Assembly (NCBI RefSeq): GCF_016469035.1
Contig: NZ_JAEHJZ010000007.1
Span: 127,477 to 191,476, forward strand
Length of the DNA stretch: 64,000 bases
Direction of reading: 5' to 3'
Source: Gelidibacter salicanalis
GTDB lineage: Bacteria > Bacteroidota > Bacteroidia > Flavobacteriales > Flavobacteriaceae
Each line of letters starts with the position of its first letter. Position 1 is the first letter of the stretch. A program made the position numbers and the translations under genes. Below the pieces are notes generated by a model. The model did no database searches, was not told the origin of the DNA, and was given only the letters and a program-made list of their open reading frames with translations. Below, piece by piece: positions 1,588 to 61,167 of this stretch.

Positions 1588-1960
1588 AAGGTATTGATTT
1601 GGTTAAATGTAGGAAGAAAGCTTCTAAATACAAAACAGAAAATTGGGATAGAAATAATATACTACTATTTTTAAAAATAGTATGTTTTTAGGACAGATAC
1701 CATATTGAGAAATTGTTGGTTGAAAAAGCCAACAATGGTATAGGTTTATTACGTTAATGAAAATACCAAAAACGGAAAACATCAACAACGCTTTAATATA
1801 GTTGGTGGTGGAAACACCAACAGCGGCTTCGTAACTAATTAATATGGTTGTTGGTGGAAAACACCAACAAAGGCGTGAATACCCCAAGAATGATGAATTT
1901 AATGCATCAGCAAAGATCCTTTTAATTTTTTTAAACAAAGTTCTAAAAAGCATATCTTAG
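1588..1960. repeat. Hairpin repeat cluster 1 between divergent genes
   Basis: This 373-nt gap holds no credible gene. It contains at least three copies of a small inverted repeat: 1715-1733 (degenerate), 1801-1821 (with two extra bases) and 1850-1868 (exact GTTGGTGGAAAACACCAAC). The last is followed by AAGGCGTGAATACC, a tail that recurs beside hairpins near 59.7 kb. Half copies (CACCAA or CATCAACAACG) lie between them. Promoters for the two divergent flanking genes must also be here but none is obvious. An open frame across the repeats on the minus strand has no protein-like composition. Confidence 0.8.
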
Positions 1961-3448
1961 TTGCATCAACCAGATTTTATGAGCAACATTAAACGCATCG
2001 GTTTTCTATTAGGACCACTAGCTTTTATCTTAATTCTATTATTTTTCAAACCAGAAGGCCTTTCCACAGAGGCACGAGCCATTTTAGCCTCCACGGCATG
2101 GGTGTCCATTTGGTGGATTACGGAAGCGATTCCTATTGCGGTTACTGCATTATTGCCTATTGTACTTTTCCCCTTATCTGGCGGCTTGGATCTTGGCACC
2201 ACTACGGAATCCTTCGGCCATAAGTATATTTTTCTATATATCGGCGGATTTATCATCGCCATTGCCATTGAAAAATGGAGCCTACACAAACGCATTGCCT
2301 TAAACATCATCAATTTTATTGGCTCTGATATTAAGAAAATCATCATGGGTTTTATGGTGGCCACCGCTTTTTTAAGTATGTGGATTTCCAATACCGCCAC
2401 GGCAGTGATGATGCTACCTATTGGCATTGCCATTATTACACAGCTGAAAGACAATCCAAATACAGTTGAAAATGAAACCAATTTATTTGGTAAGGCCTTG
2501 ATGCTGGCCATCGCCTACAGTGCTTCCATTGGCGGAATTGCCACATTGATTGGTACACCTCCAAACTTAATTCTGGTTGGGGTGGTCTCAAATATTTATG
2601 ATTATGAAATCACCTTTTTACAATGGTTTATGTTTGGATTGCCCATTTCAGTGGTTCTACTTTTTATTTGTTGGAAATATTTGACCTCTTACGCCTTCAA
2701 TTTTGATCAGAAGGAATTTCCAGGAGGCAAAACAGAAATCAAACGATTGTTGAAATTACTCGGTAAGATCAGTTATGAAGAAAAATTGGTGGCCATTGTT
2801 TTTGGAACAACGGCCTTCTTTTGGATTACCCGTTCCCTCTTATTTGACAAATTAATTCCAAAATTAGACGACACCATCATTGCTCTAATTTTTGCAATTG
2901 TCCTGTTCCTGATTCCTTCAAAAGATAAAAAACAAAAACTGATGACTTGGGAAGATGCCGTAAAATTGCCATGGGGTGTTATTCTACTATTTGGAGGTGG
3001 TTTGGCTATTGCCAGCGGATTTGAATCTAGCGGATTAGCTGTATGGATTGGTAACCAAATGACGACATTTGCCGGTTTATCGACAATTATTCTTATTCTC
3101 TTGCTGATTGCCGCAATCAACTTTTTAACAGAAATCACCTCCAATACAGCCACCACAGCAATGTTGTTGCCTGTTTTGGCCCCTATGGCCGTCATTGTTG
3201 ATATTCATCCTTTTATTTTGATGGTTGGAGCGGCAGTAGCTGCCTCCTGTGCCTTCATGCTCCCCGTGGCGACGCCCCCAAATGCGGTGGTTTTTGGCTC
3301 GGGGTATTTAAGAATTCCCGATATGGTGAGGAAAGGGATTGTGATGAATGTTATTTCAATTGTCATTCTCACGTTGTTTGTGTATTTTATGTTGCCCCTG
3401 CTCTGGGATTTGACGGTGGAAGGGTTCCCGGAGGCTTTGAAACGATGA
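1961..3448 (+). CDS. SLC13/DASS-family sodium-coupled anion (dicarboxylate or sulfate) transporter
   Basis: About 489-495 residues and strongly hydrophobic, with roughly a dozen membrane segments in two homologous halves, each carrying a motif of the divalent-anion:Na+ symporter family: SNTATAVMMLPIG near 145-157 and SNTATTAMLLPVLAP in the C-terminal half. These SNT loops bind sodium and the substrate carboxylate in VcINDY-type carriers. The longest frame opens with TTG at 1961, but the ATG at 1979 gives MSNIKRIGFLLGP and is at least as likely. It stands alone, divergent from the comM gene. Substrate (succinate, citrate or sulfate) cannot be decided from sequence. Confidence 0.9.
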   Translation: MHQPDFMSNIKRIGFLLGPLAFILILLFFKPEGLSTEARAILASTAWVSIWWITEAIPIAVTALLPIVLFPLSGGLDLGTTTESFGHKYIFLYIGGFIIAIAIEKWSLHKRIALNIINFIGSDIKKIIMGFMVATAFLSMWISNTATAVMMLPIGIAIITQLKDNPNTVENETNLFGKALMLAIAYSASIGGIATLIGTPPNLILVGVVSNIYDYEITFLQWFMFGLPISVVLLFICWKYLTSYAFNFDQKEFPGGKTEIKRLLKLLGKISYEEKLVAIVFGTTAFFWITRSLLFDKLIPKLDDTIIALIFAIVLFLIPSKDKKQKLMTWEDAVKLPWGVILLFGGGLAIASGFESSGLAVWIGNQMTTFAGLSTIILILLLIAAINFLTEITSNTATTAMLLPVLAPMAVIVDIHPFILMVGAAVAASCAFMLPVATPPNAVVFGSGYLRIPDMVRKGIVMNVISIVILTLFVYFMLPLLWDLTVEGFPEALKR

Positions 3449-3565
3449 TATTTTACAGACACGAATTTCACTAATTTACGCGACGCGATCATTCCAATTT
3501 TGTGACAGATTGCTAGACCATCTTATTATGTAATCTATCCTAACGTCGTGGCTTTGCGCGGGTCA

Positions 3566-4525
3566 TTACTTTGAATGTTCCTTAACAAACTCCAAAGCAC
3601 GTTTCTCGGTATAATAAAATCCGCCACGTTGCACGAATCCTACATGCCCGCCGTGTTTTGGCATTTCTAAATAGAGATTAGAATTGTTTTTGGCGGCTTT
3701 TACAGGAAAACATTCGGGGGTTAAAAATGAGTCGTTGAGCGCGTTAATGATTAAACTAGGCACTTTAATAGTGGGTAAAAACTGTAAACAGCTGCTTTGT
3801 TCATAGTAGTCTAATGCGTTTTTGAATCCGTGGGCTTTTGAGGTGTACACTTCATCAAATTCTGTTAGGGTGTTGATAGAATTTAAGACCTCGTCTGATA
3901 ATTTCTCGGGGAAGTTATTTTGTTTCTCTTTTAGACTGTTGACTAATTTCTTTTTAAACCGGTCGTGAAATAATCTGTTCTTTAAACTGTGCAGCTGCTT
4001 AGCCGAATGTTGCAAACTACAGGGTACCGATATGCCAATACATGCTTTCACTTGAGAAGGCACATCGCGTTCCCCTAAGTATTTTAAGGCCAAATTACCC
4101 CCCAAGCTGATGCCATAAATATAAATCTCTGCATAGTGTTTATCGTTAATAGCGTGCATCACAATAGCGTGCAAATCTTCAGTGGCGCCAGAATGGTAGG
4201 CATAGTATTTTCGGTTTGGCTCGCCACTACAGCCTCTAAAATTGACACTGATGGCGTCTATGCCATTTTGGTTGAACAGTTTTGCCGTACCCGTAAGATA
4301 AGGACGTTGGCCATTGCCTTCCAATCCGTGGAGTAAGATGATTACCTTCTCTGATTTTTGTTCTGCGTAGCTCCAATCCAAGTCAATAAAATCGCCGTCT
4401 GCCAATTCCAAACGATCGCGTGTTTGATCTAAATCGACTGTTCTAAATAATCCCGAATAAACTGTGGCAATAAACCCTTTTCGGAATAAAAAAGGGGCTT
4501 TAAATGTGGATTCTATAACGGGCAT
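3566..4525 (-). CDS. YheT-like alpha/beta hydrolase
   Basis: This 319-residue protein has the alpha/beta-hydrolase fold of the YheT/EMB8 group. The oxyanion-region motif LLHGLEGN is near 64-71, the nucleophile elbow YGISLGGN near 137-144 with the catalytic Ser, and a late His sits in KHGGHVGF near the C-terminus. PYLTGTAKLFNQNGIDAISVNFRGCSGEPN is a characteristic stretch of this group. Members are esterases or acyltransferases of poorly defined substrate, probably cytoplasmic since there is no signal peptide. It is monocistronic, with the adenine deaminase gene upstream on the same strand. Confidence 0.9.
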   Translation of the reverse strand: MPVIESTFKAPFLFRKGFIATVYSGLFRTVDLDQTRDRLELADGDFIDLDWSYAEQKSEKVIILLHGLEGNGQRPYLTGTAKLFNQNGIDAISVNFRGCSGEPNRKYYAYHSGATEDLHAIVMHAINDKHYAEIYIYGISLGGNLALKYLGERDVPSQVKACIGISVPCSLQHSAKQLHSLKNRLFHDRFKKKLVNSLKEKQNNFPEKLSDEVLNSINTLTEFDEVYTSKAHGFKNALDYYEQSSCLQFLPTIKVPSLIINALNDSFLTPECFPVKAAKNNSNLYLEMPKHGGHVGFVQRGGFYYTEKRALEFVKEHSK

Positions 4526-4582
4526 TTATAAGTATTGTTTAGATTGTTGATTGAGAAATATAGAGCAAAATTATAAAAAACA

Positions 4583-6205
4583 TTATTCAACGGTTAAGCT
4601 CGTAAATTTAAACTCTTTTCCGTTGAAGAGGCCTTTATCGCTGAGTTTCAATGCCGGAATGACTAAAAGTGCCATAAACGATAAGGTCATGTACGGGGCA
4701 TTCAACGTACTTCCCAATGCTTTGGCCATTCTGTCTAAATCGGCATAATCTTTTCCCACGGTTTCTCCATCTCGATCGCTCATGATTCCGGCTACCGGTA
4801 ATGATAAAAGTTGTTCTTCAGCATCAGACACAGCACAAATACCGCCTTTGGTTTCAATCAATACATTGACCGCTTTACAGATCATTTCATCTGAAACACC
4901 AACGGCAATAATATTGTGTGAATCATGACCAACAGAACTGGCAATAGCACCTTGTTTCAATCCGAAATTCTTTATAAAAGCGATGGCTGGCGGCTGATCT
5001 TGATACCGATTTACAACGGTCATTTTTAAAATATCCGTTTTTACATTAGAAACGAGGTTCCCATTTTCAATCAAACTTTCATCAACAAGTTCCTTAGTGA
5101 CCAATTGCCCTTCCAAAGCTTCAATTACACGAATGTGCTTAGATGTAGATGGAAATCTAAAATCGCTGACATTCTTTTTAGACGTATTGAAATTATTAAG
5201 ATTTTTAAAGTCCACTTTTTTAATCAACGATTTGCCTTGATCAAAAACCAACGCCCCATCAATATAGGTCTGTAAGGTTTTAAATACCTTTAAATCTTGG
5301 ACGACAATCATATCTGCCGCGTCTCCAACTTTTAAAGCACCAACATCCAATCCATAATGTTTTATAGGATTGAGGCATGCCACCTGTAAAACCTTAAAAA
5401 TGTCCATCCCTTTTGCAACCGCTCTTGCACACAGATTGTTGATATGATGCACTACTAAATCGTCAGGATGCTTATCATCACTGCAAAACATCATGTTTTC
5501 AAAATGCTCAGGCAATAAATCGATAAGAGCCTCAAAATTTTTGGCGGCACTTCCTTCTCTGATTAATATTTTCATGCCCTTTTGAAGCTTTTCCAGGGCT
5601 TCCTCATAAGTAAAACATTCATGATCTGTAGTAATTCCCGCATTGATATATTTCGTAATAGCATCACCCACAACACCTGGCGCATGGCCATCTACAGGTT
5701 TATTATACTGTTTTGCCCAAGCGATTTTTTTCATCACTTCAGGATCATCGAACAAAACACCGGGATAATTCATCATCTCCGCCAAATATTTGATGTCCGG
5801 ATTTTCAAGAAGTTTTTTGATGCCATCAGCATTGATAATGGCGCCTGCCGATTCAAAATCTGTAGCGGGAACGCAAGAAGGCGCTCCAAAATTAAATTTG
5901 AATGGGACTTTTTTACCATTCTCAATCATAAACTCAACACCTGCTACGCCGAGTACATTCGCAATTTCATGCGGATCTGAAACAGTGGCTACCGTACCGT
6001 GCGTTACTGCCAAACGGGCAAATTCACTCGGCACCAACATCGAACTTTCAATATGAATATGCGCATCCACAAAACCTGGCATAATGTAATGTTCAACATC
6101 ATGCCCCTTTTCGGCAATGTTTGAAATCTTTCCATTTTTGATGGAGACTTCGCCTTTAAAAATTCGTTTATTTTGGATGTCGACTATTTGTCCTTGTAAC
6201 TTCAT
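4583..6205 (-). CDS. ade: Adenine deaminase
   Basis: This 540-residue amidohydrolase would convert adenine to hypoxanthine and ammonia in purine salvage. Metal-binding features of the Ade family are visible: [14 protein letters not shown] near 44-57, [21 protein letters not shown] and [11 protein letters not shown]. The C-terminal Ade-specific domain includes [11 protein letters not shown] and ends normally. The ATG abuts the tilS stop codon directly, so the two genes are almost certainly co-transcribed and perhaps translationally coupled. Length is close to the family norm and all key residues seem present. Confidence 0.95.
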
Positions 6206-7519
6206 TTACTGTAGGTCTATTTTTAAAATTTTAGTGGTATTCTCGGTTACTTTAAATCGATCATCTGCACGTTTCCCTACCACCCAAACCACTTCATCAT
6301 CGGAAACCAGAATCCATATGTGTTCTTTTTCAATTAAGGATAATTTTTCATCCTTAAAATATTTGCTCAACTTCTTCTTCTTCCCTTTCATTCCCAGAGG
6401 ATAAAACACATCACCTTCCTGCCATTTTCTTAAGATCAATGGGAAAACCAGTTTTTCAGCATCAACATATATTGTGGTGTTTCCTGTATCCATAATTGCA
6501 GTAACGTGTTCAAAACGCAAGGTTCCAAAAGGTACGACTACTTCTTGATCGGATTTTTGAATGGCAATAGGGGCTTGATCAGTTTCAGAAGCAATTTCAC
6601 TCAGCAATAAAAACTCGCGGTCTTTTAACAATCTATGGGTTGAAGAAAATACCTGTTTCCCAGATTGGGCATCCAATAAATTCACAACGTCATTCCACGC
6701 CGTAAAATTAAAATCCTTTAAAAGTTGGTAAAGATACGCCTTCGGATTGGACAGCTGTTTTAATTTAAGAACATCCAGCTTAATTTGATCATCCTCAGCG
6801 GTGGTCAATTTTTTCTGGATTCTCACCACACTATCGTCAATAAGATCTTGACTGTCCTGTAAATTTGAGATGGTGGTTTGAAAATTCTGAAGCAATTGCG
6901 AATTCATCTGTTTTAATATCGGAATGATATCATGGCGCAATTTATTCCTCAAGTACTTGGTAGACGCATTACTACTGTCTTCCTGCCACGCGATGTTTTG
7001 GTCAATGGCATACACTTTTAACGCTTCTCTAGAAAAAGGCAATAACGGCCTTACAATTTTACCCGTTACTTCAGGAATTCCGGTTAAGCCTTCCAAACCA
7101 GTCCCCCTGGTTAAGTTTATTAAAAACGTTTCAAGATTATCATCCGCATGATGTGCCGTAAGGATATAGTCGAATTTCAATTGCTCTGCGAGTTCCTGAA
7201 ACCATGTATAACGCAATTCGCGAGCAGCCATTTGTATGGACAGTCCCTCCTCTTTAGCGTAGTTTTCCGTTTCAAAACTCTCTATAAACACTTCCATATC
7301 CAAATCATCAGCCAACTGTAACACAAAATCTTCGTCAGCATCACTCTCCGCTGCTCTCAAATTGAAATTACAATGCGCCAACGAAACTTTTAAGTTTAAT
7401 TGATGGCATAAATGCGCCAAGACCACACTATCCAAACCACCAGAAATGGCCAGCAATAAGCGGCTGTCCTGAAGCATATTCAAATTACTCTCCAAGTGTT
7501 TCTTAAAAGTGTCTCGCAT
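6206..7519 (-). CDS. tilS: tRNA(Ile)-lysidine synthetase
   Basis: TilS ligates lysine to C34 of the CAU-anticodon tRNA-Ile, an essential decoding step. The PP-loop ATP-binding motif SGGLDS lies at residues 26-31 of the form starting MRDTF. The N-type ATP-pyrophosphatase core follows (HADDNLETFLINLTRGTGLEG), and a C-terminal substrate domain is near the end. A longer frame opens 16 codons upstream at 7567, but MRDTF at 7519 matches where family members start, so I prefer it. It is followed immediately by ade. No odd features. Confidence 0.93.
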   Translation of the reverse strand: MRDTFKKHLESNLNMLQDSRLLLAISGGLDSVVLAHLCHQLNLKVSLAHCNFNLRAAESDADEDFVLQLADDLDMEVFIESFETENYAKEEGLSIQMAARELRYTWFQELAEQLKFDYILTAHHADDNLETFLINLTRGTGLEGLTGIPEVTGKIVRPLLPFSREALKVYAIDQNIAWQEDSSNASTKYLRNKLRHDIIPILKQMNSQLLQNFQTTISNLQDSQDLIDDSVVRIQKKLTTAEDDQIKLDVLKLKQLSNPKAYLYQLLKDFNFTAWNDVVNLLDAQSGKQVFSSTHRLLKDREFLLLSEIASETDQAPIAIQKSDQEVVVPFGTLRFEHVTAIMDTGNTTIYVDAEKLVFPLILRKWQEGDVFYPLGMKGKKKKLSKYFKDEKLSLIEKEHIWILVSDDEVVWVVGKRADDRFKVTENTTKILKIDLQ

Positions 7520-7597
7520 GTCTTTTTTTGTTAAAACATTAAAAATTAGAATGGCAACGCTTCGCATTTTCCCTACCGCGTCTGGCTCTAAATATAA

Positions 7598-8887
7598 TTA
7601 ATTTTCAAGCACTTCCTTCATCGCTTTTGCCTTAATCAGGCATTCTTCAAACTCTTTTAGAGGATCGCTTTTTGAAGTAATCGCGCTACCTACTGAATAG
7701 GATACATATCTATTCTCTGCATTATAGAGGATACTTCTGATGATCACATTAAAATCAAAATCACCTGCAGGAGTAAAATAACCGATGCTTCCAGAATAAA
7801 GCCCGCGCTTGGTTGCTTCAAGATTTTCAATAATTTGCATCGCTGAAATTTTAGGCGCTCCGGTCATGCTCCCCATAGGAAACGTGGTTTTCACAATCTG
7901 GACTGGGGGGATGTTCGCATCAACTTCCGAAGTTATGGTCGATATCATCTGATGCACTTGTTCAAACGTATAAACGGCACACAATTCTTCAACGGTGACG
8001 CTTCCTTTTTTAGCGGTATGAGCTAAATCGTTACGCACCAAATCAACAATCATGATGTTTTCACTACGCTCCTTTGGATTGTTTTGGAGCTCGTTTTTCA
8101 AGTTTTCATCGATGAGTGTATCGGTAGAACGCGTAGCGGTCCCTTTTATGGGCTGCGAAATCACTTTTTGATTTATTTTTGTCAGATACCGTTCCGGAGA
8201 GGCACACAACACATAGTGTTGATGATTCTTAAAATACGCAGCAAAGGGCGCTTTTGAAATGGTGTTGAGTTTTATATAAGTTTCCAACGGATCAATTTCG
8301 GTTTTTTCAGCATAAAATTCGTGACAAAAATTGGCTTCATAAATATCCCCTCTATGAATATGTGCCAACATAGTATTGACTTTCTCAAGATACTGTTCCT
8401 TAGTCAACCGCATCTGAATATTGACAGGTGTTAATGGTGTTCCTTCTTGGTCCAGTTTATAGGCAGCAATGTCTTTTAGATCTGATTCCAATTCATCATC
8501 GACCATCTTTAGGTACTGCATTTCAACAACATCACCTGTGATTAAAAAAAGTTTTTTGGGTTGAAAAAAGAACAGTTCCGGAAAGTCTAAACCGTCAACA
8601 TGTTCAGATTTGAGGTGTTCAATATCGTTTTTGAGATCGTAGGTAAAGTAACCAAAAATCCAATCCTTAGTGATGGTCTGGTACTCTTGCAACTGATCAA
8701 AAGCCTGTTGGCAATCTGTAGAAATACAGGTAAATGCATCTACCGCCAACACGGTATCGTAGGTACTGTAGTGTTGCTGATGACTATTGGAATCTAACCA
8801 AACCACTTCCTCAAATTGCTGGCTCCACTGTAACAGTTGTGCTTTAAAATCTGGATTCGTTATTGTAAAAGTGTGTCGTGTTCTCAA
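7598..8887 (-). CDS. pabB: Aminodeoxychorismate synthase component I
   Basis: This 429-residue chorismate-utilising enzyme makes 4-amino-4-deoxychorismate for folate. The chorismate-binding core shows SQPIKGTATR, NPKERSENIMIVDLVRNDL and FPMGSMTGAPK. The PIKGT lysine is the PabB-type residue, whereas anthranilate synthase TrpE has PIAGT, so PabB is favoured. No pabA or trpG neighbour is present; the class IV aminotransferase at 50.4 kb could supply the lyase step, but it is 42 kb away. Together with tilS and ade it forms a minus-strand run with short gaps. Confidence 0.9.
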   Translation of the reverse strand: MRTRHTFTITNPDFKAQLLQWSQQFEEVVWLDSNSHQQHYSTYDTVLAVDAFTCISTDCQQAFDQLQEYQTITKDWIFGYFTYDLKNDIEHLKSEHVDGLDFPELFFFQPKKLFLITGDVVEMQYLKMVDDELESDLKDIAAYKLDQEGTPLTPVNIQMRLTKEQYLEKVNTMLAHIHRGDIYEANFCHEFYAEKTEIDPLETYIKLNTISKAPFAAYFKNHQHYVLCASPERYLTKINQKVISQPIKGTATRSTDTLIDENLKNELQNNPKERSENIMIVDLVRNDLAHTAKKGSVTVEELCAVYTFEQVHQMISTITSEVDANIPPVQIVKTTFPMGSMTGAPKISAMQIIENLEATKRGLYSGSIGYFTPAGDFDFNVIIRSILYNAENRYVSYSVGSAITSKSDPLKEFEECLIKAKAMKEVLEN

Positions 8888-8968
8888 GGCTCAATTTTGC
8901 GAAGTAAAGTTAATCACATTCTGCAAACTTATTAAGAAGTTTGTACTTTAGTTAAAAAATTAAAGATC

Positions 8969-12106: not shown

Positions 12107-13465
12107 TTAACATTTTTGTCATGTCGAATGTAATGAGATATCACATCATCTTTGTACCATAGAGCACCCACGATCTCGGAATGACAAAACCACAAAGTCG
12201 ATAGGGAATGGCATTCAACATTTTAGTTATGTCGAATGTAATGAGACATCACATCATCTTTGTACCATATAGCCTCCACGATCATGGGATTCCTACTAAT
12301 GTCGGAATAACAAATTGCAATGGGATGACAGGGCGTAGAAATCCCACAACTTTTTGACTTGATCCCATTTTTGTCATGTCGAATGTAATGAGACATCACA
12401 TCATCTTTGTACCATAAAGTACCCACGATCATTGGATTCCTACTAATGTCGGAATGACAAATTGCAATGGGATGACAGGGCGTAGAAATCCCGCAACTTT
12501 TTGACTTGATCCCATTTTTGTCATGTCGAATGTAATGAGACATCACATCATCTTTGTCCCATAAAGTACCCACGATCATGGGATTCCTCCTGACGTCGGA
12601 ATGACAAATTGCAATGGGATGACAGGGCGTAGAAATCCCACAACTTTTTGACTTGATCCCATTTTTGTCATGTCGAATGTAATGAGATATCACATCATCT
12701 TTGTACCATAGAGTACCCACGGTCATGGGATTCCTCCTAACGTCGGAATGACAAAACCATAAAGTCGATAGGGAATGGCATTCAACATTTTTGTCATGTC
12801 GAATGTAATGAGATATCAAATCATCTTTGTCCCATAGAGCACCCACGATCTCGGAATGACAAAACCACAAAGTCGATAGGGAATGGCATTCAACATTTTA
12901 GTTATGTCGAATGTAATGAGACATCACAACATCTTTGTAGCATAGAGCCTCCACGGTCATGGGATTCCTCCTAACGTCGGAATGACAAATTGCAATGGGA
13001 TGACAGGGCGTAGAAATCCCACAACTTTTTGACTTGATCCCATTTTTGTCATGTCGAATGTAATGAGATATCACATCATCTTTGTCCCATAAAGTACCCA
13101 CGATCATGGGATTCCTCCTGACGTCGGAATGACAAATTGCAATGGGATGACAGGGCGTAGAAATCCTACAACTTTTTGACTTGATCCCATTTTTGTCATG
13201 TCGAATGTAATGAGACATCACATCATCTTTGTACCATAAAGTACCCATGATCATGGGATTCCTCCTGACGTCGGAATGACAAAACCATAAAGTCGATAGG
13301 GAATGGCATTCAACATTTTAGTTATGTCGAATGTAATGAGACATCACATCATCTTTGTACCATAGAGCCTCCACGGTCATGGGATTCCTCCTAATGTCGG
13401 AATGACAAATTGCAATGGGATGACAGGGCGTAGAAATCCCACAACTTTTTGACTTGATCCCATAA
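12107..13465. repeat. Ten-copy degenerate tandem array of MITE-like units
   Basis: Ten copies of a unit beginning with ATGTCGAATGTAATGAGA start at 12121, 12229, 12376, 12523, 12670, 12796, 12904, 13051, 13198 and 13324. Spacings are 108, 147, 147, 147, 126, 108, 147, 147 and 126 nt. Each unit is bounded by inverted TTGTCAT and ATGACAA. Most contain a near-palindrome CCCAYGATCATGGG, which is perfect near 13243-13257. Two linkers alternate: one with GATGACAGGGCGTAGAAAT, one with AAGTCGATAGGGAATGGC; short units lack the central palindrome. Long open frames on the minus strand (12223-12870 and 12898-13254) arise because unit lengths are multiples of three. No transposase is nearby. Confidence 0.9.
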
Positions 13466-24347: not shown

Positions 24348-24632
24348 AGATTGATCTAGGTTTGAGGTTTGAGGGTTGAGGGTTGAGGTTTGAGGGATGT
24401 ACATTGTTGATTTGTGATTGAAGATTGCTGATTTTTGATTGATCTAGGTTGAGGTTTGAGGGATGAGGGATGAGGGATGAGGGATGAGGATTGTTGATTT
24501 CAGATATGCTAACTTGAATAAGAACCGCCAACTGAAGACTGACAACTGAAAACTGACAACTGATAACTGATAACTGAACCCCAATTTTCCATTTTAGAAA
24601 CCTAATAGTTACATAACCAACACAACCATGCC
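24348..24632. repeat. Low-complexity tandem repeats with a G-quadruplex-like run
   Basis: The gap between kdsC and the UbiA gene is built of short repeats. At 24358-24398 GAGGGTT/GAGGTTT units occur. At 24458-24489 GAGGGAT is repeated four times, giving GGG at 24460, 24467, 24474 and 24481 separated by ATGA. At 24532-24578 ACTGANAACTGAC-type units occur. The first two arrays are interrupted by ATTGATCTAGGTT, itself present twice. No gene is seen here. Confidence 0.85.
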
Positions 24633-42746: not shown

Positions 42747-43159
42747 GTCCTCATTGTTATTACTACGGTTACTTGCGTCTTTGAATTGTTGGAGGAAAAC
42801 ACCAACAAGGGCATGAATGGCATATAAAAAACCACAACGGCTTATAAAAACATCAACAACGGCATTGGCTTATGTCTTTGTGTTGTTGGTGGAAAACACC
42901 AACGACGGCATGGAAATCTTCTGATCTCATTAAATACATTGTTGGTGGAAAACACCAACAATGGCAGGAAAACCCTTATTATGATTATAACTATTGCAGC
43001 TCATTACGTTGGGTTGTTGGTGGAAAGCACCAACAAGGGCATGACAACGACATTGGCTTACGTCTCTGTGTTGTTGGTGGAAAACACCAACAACGGCATG
43101 CAAACACCAACAATGGCAGGAATACTAACAAGGCTATCAGTAAAAAGTATTTCAAATAA
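42747..43159. repeat. Hairpin repeat cluster 2 between photolyase and murA
   Basis: Five hairpins related to GTTGGTGGAAAACACCAAC start at 42788, 42885, 42941, 43016 and 43073 (spacings 97, 56, 75 and 57). Half copies lie near 42830, 42851 and 43103. Each is followed by AA-N-GGCATG or GGCAGG. The copies at 42885 and 43073 also share a 20-odd-nt upstream flank (ATTGGCTTAYGTCTYTGTG). No gene is present; the hairpins are all in the plus orientation, downstream of the photolyase gene. Confidence 0.85.
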
Positions 43160-51784: not shown

Positions 51785-51798
51785 CAGCCTCAAATTAT

Positions 51799-52153: not shown

Positions 52154-52154
52154 C

Positions 52155-53655: not shown

Positions 53656-53658
53656 TTT

Positions 53659-53930
53659 CTAGCTGGTTTCAATTTCTAATTGCGCCACAAACCGATTGTC
53701 CTTTACAACCGTTTTAAAACTGTTTTTATTGGGATATAATAACTCCAAACGTTTTTCAATATTAGGAAGCCCGATTCCTGAACCGCTTTTATCGTCTGTC
53801 TTTTTAGGAAAGTTATCGTTTTCAATAGTAAACAAAACTGTTTTTGCATTAGTAGTCATGTTTATTTCAATGGTACTTTTCTTACTTGCCGAAACTCCAT
53901 GTTTAAATGCATTTTCAATTAAACTACTAC
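53659..53930 (-). pseudogene. C-terminal fragment of a LytS/YehU-type histidine kinase
   Basis: Only the ATPase end survives: LIENAFKHGVSASKKSTIEI (N box), then DKSGSGIGLPNIEKRLELLYP (G box) and QLEIETS-stop at 53659, 3 nt before the response regulator. Upstream the coding sequence stops abruptly at about 53930 where the end hairpins of an IS200-type element begin. The H-box and membrane part are not found on the far side of that element, so they were deleted rather than only displaced. Confidence 0.83.
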
Positions 53931-53931
53931 C

Positions 53932-54470
53932 AGCTTCAAGCTGGTAGATTTGATTCCGCCTACAAGGCGGCTAAAGCTACTCACTCGTAATTTTAAAATC
54001 TCCTTCTTCATTCTCCATATCCTGTTTCTCGATATATTCCAGTATCATTTCATCGGTTATCGCTCCTGAACTCACTACAAAATAGCCTCAAGCCCAAAAA
54101 TACCTGCCCCAATACATCTTTGATATTGTTTTGAACTCTGACATGACCTTTCACGAACTCTTCCCTTTTATATATTGCATCAATTTACTTACGGATATAT
54201 GTGGAGGAACTGACACGAATAAATGTACATGATCCACCGAAACATGTCCTTTTATAATTTCTACATCATTAGCCTTGCAAACCTCTCGTATAAGCTCGCG
54301 GACTCGTCTTGCCAATTCTCCTGTCAATATCTTTTTACGATATTTCGTTATCCACACCAAATGATATTTGATGTCGTAAACGGTATGAGACGTTTTTCTG
54401 TACTTGTGCATAACACAAAAATAACAAAACTAAAGTCTTCGCCTAAAGGCGAGGGATTTTCTCCCATTCC
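53932..54470 (-). mobile_element. Degenerate IS200/IS605-type element
   Basis: A dead tnpA (53977-54411) is flanked by the stem-loops expected at IS200 ends. On one side are CTACCAGCTT/AAGCTGGTAG (about 53928-53948) and CCGCC/GGCGG (53956-53970); on the other is CGCCT/AGGCG (about 54430-54443) upstream of the transposase start. Boundaries are approximate. No tnpB accessory gene is present. The element abuts the truncated histidine kinase. Confidence 0.75.
53977..54411 (-). pseudogene. tnpA: IS200-type Y1 transposase tnpA with two in-frame TGA codons
   Basis: The 145-codon frame encodes a TnpA: KYHLVWITKYRKKIL, the HUH motif in DHVHLFVSVPP (residues 60-70), then TGA at codon 87 (54151-54153), KVMSEFKTISKMYWGRYFWA, TGA at codon 108, then GYFVVSSGAITDEMILEYIEKQ with the catalytic Tyr at 126. 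In homologues both stop positions are Arg (SSRK, FWARGYF), so CGA to TGA changes are likely. Without them it would be a normal 144-residue enzyme. It is therefore inactive. Confidence 0.88.
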
Positions 54471-54479
54471 CCGAATTAG

Positions 54480-54825
54480 AAATTAATAATATATTTTCAA
54501 TAACCGATTCTATTTTCTTTCTTTTTTATATTCTATTTGTACAGAACATTGATTTTGAATGAAAGTTCTGAAACTGTAATATTATTAATGTATTTCTATA
54601 ACACTTCGATAATTTCATTTATTTTGGTCAAATGGTAGGTAACACATGTATAGACGCAACAAGTTGCGCCTACGTATTTACACACTTGACCAAATCAATC
54701 ACAGCACAACTTCCAAATATCCTACCCTTAACTCAACGTTTTATCCATAGACGGCAAATCAACCGGATTCGTCAATCGAGTAGACGGGTCCGCCCCTAGT
54801 TAGGAACGGACTGCGGTTCGTCATT
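54480..54825. other. Intergenic with a palindrome
   Basis: No gene is recognised. A GCAAC/GTTGC palindrome flanked by GACGCAACAAGTTGCGCC lies at 54653-54670. A second hairpin-forming stretch, GTCCG/CGGAC on the minus strand, lies around 54785-54812 just past the intron reverse-transcriptase remnant. Confidence 0.5.
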
Positions 54826-55250
54826 TCAGAACTTCACACGGAGGTAATACGCTAGCAAACTTTCATAACCTCTTTTTCTTAGACATTTTTTGGTAATGGT
54901 AGTCCCGAGAATAGGGCTTTGGGCTACTGCCCATCCTCCCATTCTTGTCCTACTCCAAGCAAAGGCTTGTCCCTGTTTTATTCCCAATCTAATGAGGTTC
55001 CTGCGTTTGCGCTCTGGTTTCTTCCAGTCATGCCATATACAGTAGCGAAGTCGGTTTCGTAGCCATTCATCCATCTTTTTAAGTTTGGTCTGTATATTTC
55101 CTAAACGAAGATTATTCAACCACCCTTTATAGATGAGTTTTAAGCGTTGTAGTCGTTCCGCTAATGATAATGGCAGCGTTTTCTTGGTAGCGAACTTGAG
55201 CTTGCGTTTAAGTGCTTGCCAAGCTGTTTTACTTACTATTAACGTTTCTT
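54826..55250 (-). pseudogene. C-terminal remnant of a group II intron reverse transcriptase/maturase
   Basis: The remnant encodes about 140 residues, beginning near KETLIVSKTAWQALKRKLKF and continuing through LAERLQRLKLIYKGWLNNLRLGNIQTKLKKMDEWLRNRLRYCIWHDWKKPERKR and AFAWSRTRMGGWAVAQSPILGTTI. This is the maturase-specific (GIIM) and C-terminal DNA-binding region. All RT catalytic motifs, including YADD, are absent. The upstream end hits a stop codon. It lies in the same orientation as the intron-like RNA region at 55251-55725. Confidence 0.85.
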
Positions 55251-55725
55251 TTGGTTACTATGACATCCACGCCTGAATGACGCAGTCGGGCAGGTGCTGA
55301 CCTCTCTATTTTACCGACTCGTAGTTATAGAGACCTCTCCAGGTAATGGCATCTTTCCTGCCACGCCAGAGGCGTGGTTTCTCTCGATCCCTGCCGCATC
55401 TACATATATGCACTTTTGGTATTCTTTTGGGCTTTACATTGATGTGGCTGCTTACCCATACATAAATACCTCATATTCTGTTTATTAACGGATTTGATAT
55501 TTTGTTTGTGTTCATAGATTCGCTTCGTTTAATTCTGTCCGTCAGTAGCGTCCCAAGCTATCGGGATTGTAGTCCTGCTTCCTTCACTCCTCACCTCACG
55601 GTAGACGGGCTTGCAGCTTACTAATGTTAAAAGAGCCTGTCCTGAGCAAAGTAGAAAGGTTAGCCCCGCCCCATCCATAAAAAACCAAAAGAGTTATTTT
55701 TTCCCACCGCTCGCAGCCTGTTAAT
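55251..55725 (-). mobile_element. Probable 5' RNA portion of the decayed group II intron
   Basis: On the minus strand this stretch carries features I associate with bacterial group II intron leader domains: GCAAGCCCGTCTACCGTGAG, GTGAGGAGTGAAGGAAGCAGG, a GATGCGGCAGGGATCGAGAG stretch, and a repeated GAGAGGTC. It ends where the maturase remnant begins, so an internal deletion removed the RT catalytic domains. A GCCTG...GGCAGG palindrome (55271-55294) is inserted near the junction. The exact intron 5' end is not identified. Confidence 0.55.
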
Positions 55726-55816
55726 AAGTTTGAAAAGAAAAATCATTGAATATCCAAAACACTGGATATATTTGACATTAACTGTCAAGTGTAATTACTC
55801 AATTGATATTTCAGAA

Positions 55817-56142
55817 ATGAAAACTAACAAATCAACAGGCGAAATTATTAGAGAAAAAAGAGAAGAAAAAGGGTTGCTCTTGCGACACGTTATATTGATA
55901 CAGCCATACTCAGCAAAATAGAAAGAAGCGAACGAAAAGCAACAAAAGAACAAATCCTAAAACTTGCCGAAATATTGGATTTAGACAAAGACAATCTAAT
56001 TATTCAATACCTGAGCGAAAAAATGCTGTACGAAATAAAAGATGAAAAACTTGGGAGCAAAGCACTAAAGGTAGCTGAGCAAAAAATGAAGTACCTATCA
56101 AAAGGACAGACAGGCATAAGCAAAAATAAAAGCGGAAATTGA
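55817..56142 (+). pseudogene. Frameshifted XRE-type helix-turn-helix regulator
   Basis: From the ATG at 55817 the frame reads STGEIIREKREEKGLLLRHV, the start of an HTH_3 domain, and then shifts. The continuation YIDTAILSKIERSERKATKEQILKLAEILDLDKDNLIIQYLSEKMLYE is one frame over and ends at TGA 56142. The shift lies near 55886-55891 and part of helix 2 is lost. The TGA overlaps the ATG of the Res remnant (TGATG), which shows that the gene was once coupled to a type III restriction-modification operon, probably as its controller. Confidence 0.8.
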
Positions 56143-56279
56143 TGGAATTAAAATTAGAACTATTAGAATATCAAGAAACCGCAATCAAATCTGTTGTAAA
56201 TGTTTTTGAAGGTAATGACAAAAACACGTTTGACCATGCCTGTATTGACGGTGTTCGTTCAAATATCTGTACGAATTAA
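56142..56279 (+). pseudogene. N-terminal stub of a type III restriction enzyme (Res)
   Basis: The stub of 45 codons begins ELKLELLEYQETAIKSVVNV and continues FEGNDKNTFDHACIDGVRSN, the usual start of type III Res subunits (Q-motif region before the helicase core). After GVRSN the frame runs into unrelated sequence and stops at 56279. The helicase and nuclease domains are missing. A methyltransferase C-terminus starts at once in another frame. Confidence 0.8.
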
Positions 56280-56563
56280 CAACCGAAATACTCATCAAAA
56301 ACGGTTTTAAACTCAATCATACCTTAACAAAGCAAAAAGAATTTGAGAAAAATGAAATATACTTAGCATCAGATGCCTGCCGGCCGGACAGGCAGGGCGA
56401 TAAAGAAACGCTAATCTGTTTGGATGTAATTATTGCAGACGAAACCGTAGAACATTTTAAAACCCATACAGACAAAAAATTAATTGTACTAGAACGTGCC
56501 TTAGACACCACCAAAAAATGGAATCTAAAACTCGCTATGAGCGATAAGTTTAATGCTTTTTAA
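56261..56563 (+). pseudogene. C-terminal remnant of a type III DNA methyltransferase (Mod)
   Basis: In a frame offset from the Res stub the sequence reads KYLYELTTEILIKNGFKLNHTLTKQKEF...ETLICLDVIIADETVEHFKTHTDKKLIVLERALDTTKKWNLKLAMSDKFNAF and ends at TAA 56561-56563. This matches the C-terminal part of Mod subunits. The junction with Res lies within AAATATCTG near 56261-56269. Inside the remnant, a 24-nt palindromic insertion (56375-56398) adds ACRPDRQG without breaking the frame. Confidence 0.75.
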
Positions 56564-56574
56564 ACAGAAAAAAA

Positions 56575-57327
56575 ATGAAAAATAAAATCATTAATTTATT
56601 TGAAAACAAAACCATAATCCAAAACCAAGGAATAAAATATGCTCAGTTATTAGAGCAATTTATAGAACCATTTGCAAATGAATTTCAGGATTCAGAATAT
56701 ATGGAAGATATTTTGGAGTTTGCCATAAATGCCTGGAATTTAGGTAATATGAAAGCCTTGTTGCCAGAGGGGGAAAGTGATGCGTCAATCAATTCTATAA
56801 GAGAAAAAGACATCAATGTTGACCTGTTAAGTAGAATGATTGATTATAAAATTGAAAAATTCAAAGAATATTCCAATTTTATTGTGGATTATGAATTGAA
56901 AGAAACGAGTAGGGATCACGTTTTATCAGTAATCACCCAACCTGAAGATGCTTACCTTTCTACTATGTTTAATACTATGGACGAAGAATTTTCGGAGGAA
57001 GATTTTGAAGAAAACCTTATCAATCGTAGTGCGATTATTTTAAAACCATTGCAACCTTTTTTTGATTGGTGTTCTAATTTGTATCCAGATGAAATAGACG
57101 ATATGAAAGAAACAAATATGTATTTAATTAGTGAGGATATTGAAGACGTAGAAGGTTGGCTTAAAAAGAAATTCGATAAATTATTTATGCTTGAATTAGA
57201 AGCTTGGCATACCAATAAAAAGGAATGGCCTCAAAAACGCAATTACAAAATGTTTAAACAATGGTTTCAGGTAGATATATCGACAATGATTTTCGACTTA
57301 GAAAAAGAACCCGTTTCTAAGTATTAA
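56575..57327 (+). CDS. Hypothetical protein paired with a SWIM-domain protein
   Basis: An intact 250-residue acidic, soluble and largely helical protein starting 11 nt after the Mod remnant. Regions include FENKTIIQNQGIKYAQLLEQFIEPFANEF and LINRSAIILKPLQPFFDWCSNLYPDEIDDM. No membrane segment or signal peptide is seen and I recognise no family. The next gene, 16 nt downstream, encodes a SWIM zinc-finger protein, so the two look like one operon. Both are uninterrupted in a region where most genes have decayed, hinting that they are still used. Confidence 0.78.
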   Translation: MKNKIINLFENKTIIQNQGIKYAQLLEQFIEPFANEFQDSEYMEDILEFAINAWNLGNMKALLPEGESDASINSIREKDINVDLLSRMIDYKIEKFKEYSNFIVDYELKETSRDHVLSVITQPEDAYLSTMFNTMDEEFSEEDFEENLINRSAIILKPLQPFFDWCSNLYPDEIDDMKETNMYLISEDIEDVEGWLKKKFDKLFMLELEAWHTNKKEWPQKRNYKMFKQWFQVDISTMIFDLEKEPVSKY

Positions 57328-57343
57328 TAAAAATCATTTTTAT

Positions 57344-59026
57344 ATGCAAATACCATTAAACGAATTTGAGCAAGTTATTGATGAAAAAATCCTAAAAAGA
57401 GGATTGACATACTTTAAAGGAGGAGCAATAACAGATTTTTCAGAAATTTCAACCGGAGAATATGAAGCCATTGTTTCAGGAACAGAAGAATATACCGTTC
57501 AGTTAGAGGTTAGCAACAATACTATTGTAGCCCATAATTGCGATTGTCCTTATGATATGGGACCTATTTGTAAGCACGTAGTTGCAGCAATTTTTTATTT
57601 GCAACAAAACGAATTGGAATTGAATCATCCTAATTTTACAATTCCAAAAAAGAAAAAGACAAAATCCATTTCTCAACAAGTCAAGGAATTGCTAAGAGCA
57701 ATTTCGCACGAAGAGTTAATAGAGTTTGTTCAAAAAAACAGTAATAAGGACAAAAAATTCAGAAACTACTTTTTAGCATCCTTTGGACATTTAAGTCAAA
57801 ATCAGTCTAAGGAATTCTATCAAAAACAAATTCATTCCATATTACAAACAGCAGCAGGAAGAGATGGCTGGATTGATTGGTCGGATATGAAATATGTGGT
57901 AAACACCACAGAACCATTTATAGAAAATGCCGAAAAGTATTTGACAAATAACAATTTTGAAAATGTATTTTATATCAGCACAGCTTTATTAGAAGAAATG
58001 ACCGAAGCCTTTCAATATGGCGATGATAGTAATGGTGATTTAGGTTATTTTGTAGAATCGGCAATGGAGTTACTTTCAAAATTGGTTCAAAAGAAACTTC
58101 CGGCTACACTTAAACAAGAAATCTTTGAATATTGCATTTCTTCCTTTAACCAAAAGCTATTTGAGGGTTGGGGTTGGCATTTGGGAATGCTCCATATAGC
58201 TTGCGAATTAATAGAAAAAGAGAGTGATGCTGATATTATTCTTGATTGTTTAGATACGGTTGATGGGAACTATGAAAGAGAATTAGCTCAATCCTTTAAG
58301 CTGGATTTACTCAGGGAATTTAAAGATAAACAAGTAGTAGAAAGGTACATCAATAAACACATTTCAAACTCATCCATCAGGATGAAAGAGATAGAAAAGG
58401 CGTTTAAAAGTAAAAATTTTGAAAAAGTACTACAACTCTCAAAAGACGGAATTAAATGTGATGAGAAAGACAAACCTGGTTTAGTTAAAGTGTGGTACAA
58501 TTGGTTGCTAAAAGTTGCTCAATCACAAAAAGACACTCCAAAAATTATTGAATTTTCAAGATTTCTATTTATCGATAACTTTCATCCTGAACAAGATTAT
58601 TATCAAATCTTAAAAGATACTATTGAAGATGAAAAATGGTATCCGTTTTTAGAAGAAATAATAAAAGAAATCACCCCTAAACAAAGATGGACTTACACAG
58701 AGTTAATTCGAAAAATATACATCAAGGAAGAGTGGTGGGAAAGGTTATTTCTTATGCTCAAACAAAACATATCTCTGGAGAATATCGAACAGAACGAATC
58801 GTATCTATCAAAAGATTATTCTTCTGAATTGATTGAATTGTACAGCGAAAGAATAATAAATTACGTAGAAAAATATATAGGAAGAAATCATTATCAAACA
58901 GCTTGCAGATATTTGCGCAGAATGAAAAAATTAGGTGGAGGTAAACAAGTAAAAGATTTGATAGAAATGTTTAGAAAGCAATATCCACAACGAAAAGCAC
59001 TAATGGATGAATTAAGCCGAGTGTAA
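57344..59026 (+). CDS. SWIM zinc-finger protein
   Basis: A 560-residue soluble protein. The SWIM motif is at residues 66-78 (C66, C68, C76, H78; CxC-x7-CxH), preceded by a beta-strand lead-in (EYEAIVSGTEEYTVQLEV). The remaining 480 residues are helical with repeat-like character (many LxxLI and W/F-rich pairs), reminiscent of HEAT or TPR folds. SWIM domains bind DNA, RNA or protein and often accompany SNF2 helicases, none of which is present here. The role is unknown; the association with the gene before it and with the restriction-modification scar suggests an accessory or defence context. Confidence 0.82.
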   Translation: MQIPLNEFEQVIDEKILKRGLTYFKGGAITDFSEISTGEYEAIVSGTEEYTVQLEVSNNTIVAHNCDCPYDMGPICKHVVAAIFYLQQNELELNHPNFTIPKKKKTKSISQQVKELLRAISHEELIEFVQKNSNKDKKFRNYFLASFGHLSQNQSKEFYQKQIHSILQTAAGRDGWIDWSDMKYVVNTTEPFIENAEKYLTNNNFENVFYISTALLEEMTEAFQYGDDSNGDLGYFVESAMELLSKLVQKKLPATLKQEIFEYCISSFNQKLFEGWGWHLGMLHIACELIEKESDADIILDCLDTVDGNYERELAQSFKLDLLREFKDKQVVERYINKHISNSSIRMKEIEKAFKSKNFEKVLQLSKDGIKCDEKDKPGLVKVWYNWLLKVAQSQKDTPKIIEFSRFLFIDNFHPEQDYYQILKDTIEDEKWYPFLEEIIKEITPKQRWTYTELIRKIYIKEEWWERLFLMLKQNISLENIEQNESYLSKDYSSELIELYSERIINYVEKYIGRNHYQTACRYLRRMKKLGGGKQVKDLIEMFRKQYPQRKALMDELSRV

Positions 59027-59149
59027 ATACCAACGTTAAAAGTCATACATGTTGCCAAGTCGCTCCAAAAGCCAACCGCACTAGCCAAAACTTGTGGGCA
59101 GCGTATGCCCTGCTAACGCTACAAACAGAGCGTAAAAAATAAAAAAAAA

Positions 59150-59235
59150 GGTAAAGTTGAGTGGATGGCTCCGCCATCACCCCTCACACCACCGAGCGTA
59201 CGGGTGTCCTATACGGCGGTTCGCAAAAAAATGGA
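59150..59235 (-). mobile_element. Possible group II intron domain V/VI remnant
   Basis: Read on the minus strand, GAACCGCCGTATAGGACACC and then CGTACGCTCGGTGGTGTGAG resemble the domain V region of bacterial group II introns (GAACCGCCGTATA...CGTACGGTGGTGTGAGAGG). The catalytic-stem pairing is damaged at the CGCTCGG side. No reverse transcriptase lies next to it, so it is probably a 3' relic. Family resemblance is by recollection of the motif. Confidence 0.5.
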
Positions 59236-59519
59236 GTAAGTTGTTAGATCGGAGTAACCTATCGGTCACGGTATTTTAGTTTGCTGGTTTAATTACTTTC
59301 ATATGGCTTAAAGACATTTTCATTAAGTTTTGATGCGTCTTTATTTTACCACCTAAAAAAGCAGAACATCGTGCTGAAAAACCAACGCGAGGACTGCGGA
59401 TTTCTAAAAAGTTGAAAAAATGGCGAATGAAAATGAAAGTAGAGCGGCTAAAAAAATGATTGATTATATATTGCAACATCAACTGGATTATTTTTATAAT
59501 AATCCTGAAATGCAAAAAC

Positions 59520-60114
59520 TTATTTTGGAGCCATTTTTGGTGTTTTCCTCAAACAATTTCTGTATAACCTTGCGACCCATCACAACAAACAGCCAGAACT
59601 CATGTTTTGACCAATAATTGCTTGAAAATAAACATAAAGCACTTCCACTAAAAACAGTAAAATATCAAATGAATAGAGAATGAATACTGTTGGTGAAAAA
59701 CACCAACAGCGGCGTGAATACCACAAAGACATTGATAAGGTAGTCATTCAATTTACAAATACTGTAGACTTTGGAGCCATTGTTGGTGTTTTCCACCAAC
59801 AATTTCTGTATAATCTTGCGACCCATCACAAACAGCCAGAACTGATGTTTTGACCAATAATTGCTTGAAAACAGACATAAAGCACTTCAACTAAAAAAAA
59901 GCAAATTCTCAAATGAATAGAGAATGAATGCTGTTGGTGAAAAACACCAACAGCGGCGTGAATACCACAAAGACATCGATACGGTAGTCATTCAATTTAC
60001 AAATACTGTAGACTTTGGAGCCATTGTTGGTGTTTTCCACCAACAATTTCTATCTAACCTTGTGACCGCTCACAAACAGACAGAACTGATGTTTTGACCA
60101 ATAATTGCTTGAAA
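59520..60114. repeat. 244-bp tandem repeat with hairpin cluster 3
   Basis: Hairpins of the GTTGGTG...CACCAAC family occur at 59689-59707 (plus) and 59782-59800 (minus), and again at 59933-59951 (plus) and 60026-60044 (minus). Both pairs are exactly 244 nt apart, so a unit of that length is tandemly repeated. The unit also contains GACCAATAATTGCTTGAA and AATGAATAGAGAATGAATGCTG. A more degenerate minus-type hairpin occurs near 59536. A third unit starts at about 60020 and is interrupted by the IS element; its end resumes at 60685. No gene is recognised in the repeat. Confidence 0.88.
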
Positions 60115-60684
60115 CTAAATCACTATGGACTAAAGTGCCATAGGTTTTTAAATCTGACTAAAGTCAGCAGTACGTGATTACTCAAGTATAAAAGCGTCTG
60201 TGTCGTTATCGGATTTTCTGTGATGCTCCAAATACTCATTCACCATTTTGTCAGTAATGTTTCCTGTACTCCAACATCCAAACCCAATCGCCCAAAAATG
60301 GCGTCCCCAATAGCGCTTGTTCAACTTAGGAAATTCTTGCTGTAACCTTCTTGAGCTTCTCCCTTTTAACTTTTTCACAAGACTGCTTATATCTTGGGAA
60401 GGACGGTATTCTATGTGCATATGAACGTGATCCTTGCTGACAACACCCTTCAAAATATTCACGCCCTCGGCATCACAAACCTGTATCAAAAGCTTACGGC
60501 AACCCGTCTGGACATCACCAAGCAGAACAGGATAACGATATTTCGTACTCCAAACTATATGTACGGTCAACCTAGAGACTGTATGACCATTTACCCTTTG
60601 ATCTGCCATAAAACAAAGGTAGGTATTTTTAGAAGCTAAAGCGAGATGCACTAAAGTGCATAGTTTTAACTATTTCTGAGACCA
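60115..60684 (-). mobile_element. IS200/IS605-type element inserted into the 244-bp repeat
   Basis: Comparison with the uninterrupted repeat units places the element between GCTTGAAA (ending 60114) and ATAAACAT (from 60685), about 570 nt. End stem-loops are TATGG/CCATA and CTGACT/AGTCAG downstream of tnpA, and ATGCACT/AGTGCAT (about 60645-60660) upstream; all share ACTAAAGT. No target duplication is visible, as expected for this family. It carries one gene, tnpA, and no tnpB. Confidence 0.8.
60178..60609 (-). CDS. tnpA: IS200-type Y1 transposase TnpA, apparently intact
   Basis: A 143-residue HUH transposase from the ATG at 60609 (a 14-codon extension is possible). Features: LTVHIVWSTKYRYPVLL, the HUH pair in KDHVHMHIEY (His61 and His63), SSRRLQQEFPKLNKRYWGRHFWAIGF, and the catalytic Tyr126 in NITDKMVNEYLEHH. 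All expected residues are present and the frame is open. It cuts and joins single-stranded DNA at hairpin-bearing ends. It differs clearly from the dead copy at 54 kb, so the two belong to different IS200 lineages. Confidence 0.92.
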   Translation of the reverse strand: MADQRVNGHTVSRLTVHIVWSTKYRYPVLLGDVQTGCRKLLIQVCDAEGVNILKGVVSKDHVHMHIEYRPSQDISSLVKKLKGRSSRRLQQEFPKLNKRYWGRHFWAIGFGCWSTGNITDKMVNEYLEHHRKSDNDTDAFILE

Positions 60685-61167
60685 ATAAACATAAATCACT
60701 TCAACTAAAAATAGTAAAATGTCAAATGAATAGAGAATGAATGCTGTTGGGAAAAACACCAACAGCGGCGTGAATACCACAAAGACATCGATACGGTAGT
60801 CATTCAATTTATAAATACTGTAGACTTTGACGGTTATAATTGTAGTCTATCAAAAATAATGTACAGTCGAATAGTGAAAATATTAAGGAAGAAAAACAAA
60901 AAACAACCAAATAAAATCTGAAGTCCAATGGCAATCTTAGTAGTTGTCGCCGGTGTATCGGCACCTAATAACGCGTCGGTTCAGTTGGGACCTGAACGCA
61001 ATTGCGTAAGAAGAGAGAGAGAGAGTATTAACAATGTTGCCGAAGTTTAGCTTGTAGTAGATTATACTAAATTTGCTCCTTTATCCTTCCTGATTAACTA
61101 ATAAAATTCATAAATTGTAAACTCCTGCCATTTCGGAAAAAACTTGAGTTAGAAAAATTATAGAACT
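60685..61167. repeat. Tail of the interrupted 244-bp repeat and gene-free stretch
   Basis: From 60685 to about 60835 this resumes the 244-bp repeat, including a hairpin at 60746-60763 that has lost one T of GTTGGTG. From about 60840 to 61167 I see no gene. It holds a CGCAATTGCG palindrome near 60998 and a short GA microsatellite (GAGAGAGAGAG) at about 61015. Confidence 0.75.

Follow-up and report, generated by a model that had tools for sequence, protein, structure and literature searches.

The stretch examined here (the window) comprises 64,000 nucleotides of Gelidibacter salicanalis contig NZ_JAEHJZ010000007.1 (positions 127,477 to 191,476; assembly GCF_016469035.1). It carries three clusters of short hairpins with the stem core GTTGGTG/CACCAAC, which are repetitive extragenic palindromic (REP) elements with an unpaired foot, GCC, beside the stem. 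Some copies are accompanied by half-REPs, in which foot and 5' arm are present and the 3' arm is missing. The elements of the window are the following.

Cluster 1
1712–1738, minus strand: degraded REP-like hairpin, read from the sequence and missed by the core and oriented patterns
1801–1827, minus strand: REP, loop of 7 nt, foot (minus-strand GCC) at 1825–1827
1847–1874, minus strand: REP, foot at 1872–1874
Cluster 2
42785–42812, minus strand: REP with one stem mismatch, foot at 42810–42812
42882–42909, minus strand: REP, exact core and oriented pattern
42938–42965, minus strand: REP, exact core and oriented pattern
43013–43040, minus strand: REP, exact core and oriented pattern
43070–43097, minus strand: REP, exact core and oriented pattern
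43098–43117, minus strand: half-REP (foot, 5' arm and part of the loop, no 3' arm), next foot 20 nt on
Cluster 3
59524–60114: array of 2.4 tandem copies of a 244-bp unit, with REPs in alternating orientation
59530–59557, plus strand: degraded REP
59686–59713, minus strand: REP, exact core and oriented pattern
59776–59803, plus strand: REP, exact core and oriented pattern, folded as single-stranded DNA
59930–59957, minus strand: REP, exact core and oriented pattern
60020–60047, plus strand: REP, exact core and oriented pattern
60743–60769, minus strand: damaged REP beyond an inserted IS200-type element

Copies in the window and in the genome

The window contains 10 exact matches to GTTGGTG-N2..12-CACCAAC (starts at 1801, 1850, 42885, 42941, 43016, 43073, 59689, 59782, 59933, and 60026), and 100 dinucleotide shuffles of it contain none. 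Reading of the sequence adds imperfect hairpins near 1715, 42788, and 60746, for a window total of 13. In the source genome (G000; 5.16 Mb in 682 contigs), 128 palindromic places were found at up to two mismatches, compared to 13 for a reversed control. When the asymmetric tail GGC was required, which is the GCC foot seen on the other strand and was used to orient copies, there were 136 oriented copies (62 + 74) at up to two mismatches and a single one in the reversed control. A chance origin of the hairpins is ruled out by the shuffles (0 of 100) together with the reversed pattern (1 vs. 136). The analyzed stretches of the genome cover 102 to 104 of the approximately 136 copies, in 24 clusters.

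None of 102 hairpins lies within an open reading frame of at least 120 codons, although such frames cover 71% of the analyzed stretches; these copies are not independent for this count because the stretches were picked around hairpins and the copies sit in only 24 clusters. An Rfam scan revealed nothing at the hairpins and returned only two transfer RNAs and a piece of a group II intron, and a PHROGs search gave no matches. The scattered hairpins are one family of REP elements, often paired with their feet outward as REP doublets forming hairpins (REPINs).

A preliminary description of the window, made without database searches, had already proposed a dispersed hairpin family that avoids genes, and both points are borne out by the above counts. 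Its figure of at least twelve copies holds if imperfect copies are included but not for exact matches alone. The orientation that it gave, one-way in clusters 1 and 2 and alternating in cluster 3, is confirmed when judged by the GGC tail, and the recurring tail GGCGTGAATACC is found twice (starts 1872 and 59711). It named hundreds of intergenic copies genome-wide as one sign of a REP system; copies are many, at about 136, but not hundreds.

Foot, stem, loop, and paired copies

Foot conservation was measured on copies found by the core alone, a search in which the foot played no part. The three foot bases are G in 101, C in 100, and C in 101 of 102 copies. The foot is not the canonical GTAG or GTGG. 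CGTC-tagged repeats, which according to the available text of PMC3733652 are likewise short tagged palindromes and occur in Bacteroidetes among other phyla, differ in the tag, since the foot here is GCC and has T as its middle base in only one of 102 copies.

The stem has 10 bp. Its three pairs below the core are Watson–Crick pairs in 96, 98, and 92 of 102 copies, and the two positions beyond it pair in just 12 and 2. The outer two pairs change together (T-A, C-G, A-T, and G-C, A-T, respectively). Six genomes supplied 108 distinct sequences, 50 of which entered a covariation test. In it, 95.0% of the cells are paired compared to 87.9% after shuffling; both sides have changed in 41 cells compared to 11.1 (none of 500 shuffles as high), cells which are not independent because the copies are related. 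When the partner is slid out of register, pairing falls to 31%–68%. The loop is TTTTC or TTTTT in 98 of 104 copies. Three copies of the window, folded as single-stranded DNA, have an unpaired foot and stems of 10, 9, and 7 bp; when a whole REPIN is folded in this way, the REP pairs with the inverted REP instead.

Where neighboring copies have their feet outward (+−), the distance between them takes set values, mostly 104–106, 136, and 150–155 nt in the source genome and 57 and 62–63 nt in genome G138. These pairs at set spacing are REPINs. Same-direction neighbors account for 31 of 78 neighbor pairs in the source genome. Several clusters consist of units of approximately 187 to 244 bp repeated in tandem. 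After masking of the REPs, an interior of approximately 74–113 nt is common to cluster 3 of the window, C487, and three places on C273 and C284, with 85% identity between C487 and cluster 3; C89 has 44–50 nt of the same interior. One long REPIN therefore seems to have spread as a unit, as judged from this shared interior.

The arrangement has counterparts in Proteobacteria. The REPs of Escherichia coli, with TnpA-REP (subclass 2.2) and the bacterial interspersed mosaic elements, also combine foot and hairpin and form inverted pairs and tandem arrays, with a single REP-associated tyrosine transposase (RAYT) beside REPs; they differ in having the foot GTAG and a bulged stem, whereas foot GCC and a regular stem occur here. 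The REPINs of Pseudomonas fluorescens, as presented in the accessible part of PMC3116915, resemble the present ones in their inverted pairs with fixed spacing, in clusters next to RAYTs, and in tandem clusters. They have other stems and another RAYT clade, and the spacing classes found here are longer (104–155 nt).

A probable partner transposase and its relatives

In the window, one tnpA touches a hairpin cluster. It belongs to an element inserted in cluster 3:

60115–60685, minus strand: IS200-type insertion within the array (approximate ends), a bystander and not the REP transposase
60178–60606, minus strand: tnpA of the IS200-type element, 142 amino acids, NF033573 131.8 bits (cut-off 55), PF01797 129.9 bits

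As this is the sole such gene, the hairpins might be taken for ends or miniature derivatives of the element that are moved by its TnpA. We consider this extremely unlikely and reject the element as REP transposase. It splits a 244-bp REPIN array which was already there and the sequence of which picks up again at 60684. Copies of the element elsewhere (98% in L043 and 91% in L041, aligned over 60112–60689 of the window) lack these hairpins in the stretches retrieved, searched at up to three mismatches, and its own ends hold other palindromes around ACTAAAGT (read by eye). A second IS200-type transposase is found at 54022–54384 (minus strand; PF01797 143.1 bits) and has two in-frame TGA codons.

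A better candidate is encoded on another contig, within hairpin cluster C78: a gene for 174 amino acids (L024:5195–5719), flanked on both sides by hairpins and half-hairpins, which is the arrangement of a REPtron. It was found by reading the gap in this cluster; a genome search with PF01797 gave eight matches, none of them on C78. Unlike an insertion sequence, the gene is single-copy, being the sole match of its kind in the source genome. Its motifs NHIH, WQ, YIHQNP, and SSA follow the pattern given for subclass 2.6 in Table 1 of PMC6006769 (NH[LIV]H, WQ, YIH[QN]NP, SS), a subclass that corresponds to RAYT group 5 of Bertels et al. 2017 according to PMC6006769. Subclass 2.6 is described there with a median length of 179 amino acids, a 21-residue insertion between helix C and strand 4, and a median of 82 for the distance from HuH to Y; from H61 to Y135 there are 74 residues here. 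A profile built from 28 relatives has its best PDB match in 4er8, a RAYT–REP complex (6.3e-7). This E. coli complex is also the first fold match of the predicted structure (mean pLDDT 93.2; E 3.4e-8, TM 0.65), albeit with 16% identity and a root-mean-square deviation of 7.7. The gene likely codes for a TnpA-Y1 transposase of subclass 2.6, i.e., Bertels group 5, and is the likely partner of the REPs. A second RAYT-like gene of the genome (C100; L040:3831–4391; NF047646 46.5 bits) was set aside as a partner, as its 8-kb stretch has no GTTGGTG hairpin at up to three mismatches.

The subclass 2.6 REPtrons of PMC6006769, as far as described in its available portion, agree in the HuH, W, and Y motifs, the SS tail, and a length near the median, and also in their occurrence in Bacteroidetes, a gene flanked by hairpins, copies elsewhere, and the lack of a GT[AG]G foot. 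Their hairpins are called atypical and weaker, were found manually, and have no foot stated in that portion, whereas a GCC foot and a clean 10-bp stem are found here. The GCC foot may already be listed in Table S1 of that publication. Repeats of group 5, just called atypical in the accessible part of PMC6006769, now have a clearly defined foot, stem, and loop.

Among 299 genomes of the family, 77 have a RAYT homolog at an E-value of 1e-3 or better, and three, including the source genome, have one with at least 70% identity. Hairpin counts at up to one mismatch are 105 in the source genome, 29 in G013, 26 in G138, 7 in G168, 2 in G088, and 0–2 in the others; the largest family found is thus in a genome with the RAYT. 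Three or more copies occur in two of the three genomes with a RAYT of at least 70% identity compared to two of the 296 others (Fisher p 4e-4; an alternative table with p 2e-6 used hand-classed hairpins and is not relied on). The only two copies in G088 flank its RAYT.

A wider contig search yielded 33 loci that encode a RAYT relative, ranging from Winogradskyella and Lutibacter to Chitinophagaceae. The same hairpin lies within 500 nt of the RAYT at all 11 loci with 62%–77% identity. At some remoter loci the stems are altered with pairing kept, e.g., GTTGGTC/GACCAAC and GGTCGGTG/CACCGACC, and the foot is still GCC. In a scan for GCC followed by any hairpin, 19 of 30 RAYTs have such a structure no farther than 500 nt away, with 51 in 25.8 kb near the genes compared to 13 in 95.1 kb farther out. 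The near/far ratio is not specific to GCC because other feet are enriched too (ratios of 10 to 74, which reflect shifted readings of the same hairpins); only the GCC count of 51 is the highest. RAYTs with 30%–38% identity have the feet GCT or GTT. In a tree of 28 RAYTs, a split with full support separates 19 rows whose feet end in CC (one of them unassigned) from 9 with GCT or GTT, these 9 remoter rows having been chosen for clear hairpins. The foot labels require seven changes on this tree, and none of 200 shuffles is as low; the feet of L130, L131, L133, L135, L136, L140, and L047 are among those read by eye. At L135 and L140, both in Chitinophagaceae, the flanking hairpins, judged by eye, seem to combine a GCC foot and a bulged stem, as in bulged REPs of other RAYT groups. 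With the hairpin followed through related RAYT loci of Bacteroidota, a testable enzyme–substrate pair is at hand.

We thus consider it very likely that the hairpins form a family of REPs and REPINs on which a single RAYT of TnpA-Y1 subclass 2.6 (Bertels group 5) acts in trans. The REP family is new but of a known type, and its RAYT partner is well supported. The substrate would be the REP with its unpaired GCC foot, 10-bp hairpin, and 5-nt pyrimidine loop. The RAYT, a putative HUH enzyme with one catalytic tyrosine, would bind foot and hairpin on single-stranded DNA, nick beside the REP, and rejoin the strands, by which REPs and their feet-outward pairs could be mobilized to new intergenic sites; tandem duplication might then build the arrays with units of approximately 187–244 bp. 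The proposed cutting follows the behavior of TnpA-REP, which cuts at CT, or at CT and CA, beside the REP and for which the foot helps to choose the site (available text of PMC8266576). The preliminary description had suggested a REP-like element possibly moved by a HUH transposase, and had named compensation in the stem and a linked RAYT-type tnpA as things to look for. Compensated changes are indeed found in the outer stem pairs, and a RAYT does lie among hairpins, although on another contig (C78); the suggestion is supported by copies, compensation, and RAYT, while movement itself is what we infer.

Several observations weigh against this reading. The number of stem pairs with any both-side change is 3, not above the shuffles with 2.3 (148 of 500 as high). 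The REPIN order is not general because 13 of 15 neighbor pairs in G013 point the same way. NF047646 matches the RAYT at 67.4 bits, below its cut-off of 80, with nearly the whole model covered, and PF01797 scores 15.9 bits, below 23. G013 (29 copies) and G168 (7) carry the hairpin without a detectable RAYT. Of 18 genomes reached via RAYT loci, 13 have at least two copies at up to one mismatch (going by coordinates, G138 and G088 recur among the 18, and a near-perfect palindrome may be counted twice), one has a single, chance-like copy, and four have none, in part because their stems differ. Finally, binding, cleavage, and mobilization are inferred from better-studied RAYTs, and what the sequences themselves display is presence/absence and an empty site.

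Hairpins that are intergenic and have stable, covarying stems would also suit a role as RNA (regulatory, stabilizing messenger RNA, or terminating transcription), with spread by other means and a RAYT nearby by chance. The preliminary description had named a transcribed structured RNA as its other possibility. We regard such a role as improbable. As already noted, Rfam has no match at the hairpins; terminators are rejected on reading of the sequence, as no T-run follows the stem. The foot, which lies outside the stem, is conserved as strongly as the stem, and RAYTs of the same clade have an adjoining hairpin in many genomes. Processing as DNA fits better because of the conserved unpaired foot and the RAYT between hairpins.

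Within the genus, the cluster 2 site, which is 406 bp long in the window, measures 49 bp in G244, where it is empty with intact neighbors; G013 has REPs there. In this syntenic region of G013 (L095), a long (ACTT)n tract lies beside a REP. For cluster 3, no syntenic site was found in this comparison. In G013, the genes on either side of the RAYT site enclose REPs and half-REPs and no RAYT; the site in G244 is approximately 200 bp long and has neither. The homolog search found no RAYT in either genome. Loss of the RAYT in G013 is the simplest reading of these sequences, though not proven. The REPs may now be kept for a host role, in chromosome structure or gene regulation, and no longer be moved by the RAYT; such roles are reported for proteobacterial REPs (PMC6006769, in the part available), and the copies of G013 persist without a RAYT. 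The empty cluster 2 site in G244 and the presence of the largest family in the RAYT genome make this unlikely as the whole explanation, but leave room for a host role alongside mobility by the RAYT. One genus thus presents three states (RAYT and more than 100 copies; no RAYT and 29 copies; neither), a natural experiment on whether such repeats can be kept without their domesticated transposase.

Half-REP ladders and other repeats

Beside some full copies, foot, 5' arm, and loop are repeated in tandem without the 3' arm, which we term a half-REP ladder. Near full copies, the source genome has 30 left arms with a foot but without a right arm, 20 of which have the next foot 17–25 nt on; the corresponding numbers for G013 are 12 and 6. 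Ladders are not general, as G138 has no left-only arm beside 23 full copies. Right-only rows number 9 in the source genome and 2 in G013, all of which show a changed left arm on reading, 4 in G138, and 1 in G168; one of the latter five (L088:3103) has no changed left arm and looks like chance. This left/right asymmetry rests on one count. Other right-only counts are left unused, one being swamped by chance matches and another (22) coming from a pattern of 8 letters that finds matches in genes as well. The reversed-pattern control for half-REPs gave one match and no pair of half-REP and foot.

In 31 ladder units from five genomes, the hairpin sequence is left 0–8 nt past the 5' arm, a point within the loop or at the very start of the 3' arm. 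Of 13 RAYT loci with other stems that were examined, six (L049, L052, L060, L063, L066, and L070) show ladders built in the same way; the patterns for this count were hand-set, and most of its right-only rows are left arms read on the other strand. Independent events are fewer than these counts because units of one array share their origin. Plain slippage via microhomology does not explain most units, as a match of 5 or 8 nt before both feet is present in only 4 of 31, although the way a half-REP is defined favors early breaks.

Our guess is that the ladders arise when DNA breaks at the foot and within the loop while the RAYT processes it or while hairpins are repaired. A more specific, tentative possibility, which we rate as rather doubtful, is that group 5 RAYTs cut and join DNA by a route not yet described, with preferred boundaries at both the foot and the hairpin loop, by which foot, 5' arm, and loop are added in tandem just 5' of an intact REP. 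The ladders would then be a signature of the enzyme's product, and the final base of the foot, which is C in one RAYT clade and T in the other, would be a clade-specific guide read by the RAYT. Half-REP ladders are not mentioned for the REPINs of P. fluorescens in the accessible part of PMC3116915, and a literature search, to which subscription papers and supplements were out of reach, found no description of these hairpins or of the ladders, which are possibly a new trait. They are a physical trace that any model of REP movement should explain.

Other features of the window are a fragment of a group II intron (55378–55502, minus strand; RF02001, 42.2 bits), a different repeat at 12219–13283 with 147-bp tandem units according to Tandem Repeats Finder (TRF; consensus start CATTTTTGTCATGTCGAATGTAATGAGACATC), and heptanucleotide tandem tracts of AGGTTTG, TGAGGGA, and CAACTGA at 24358–24578.

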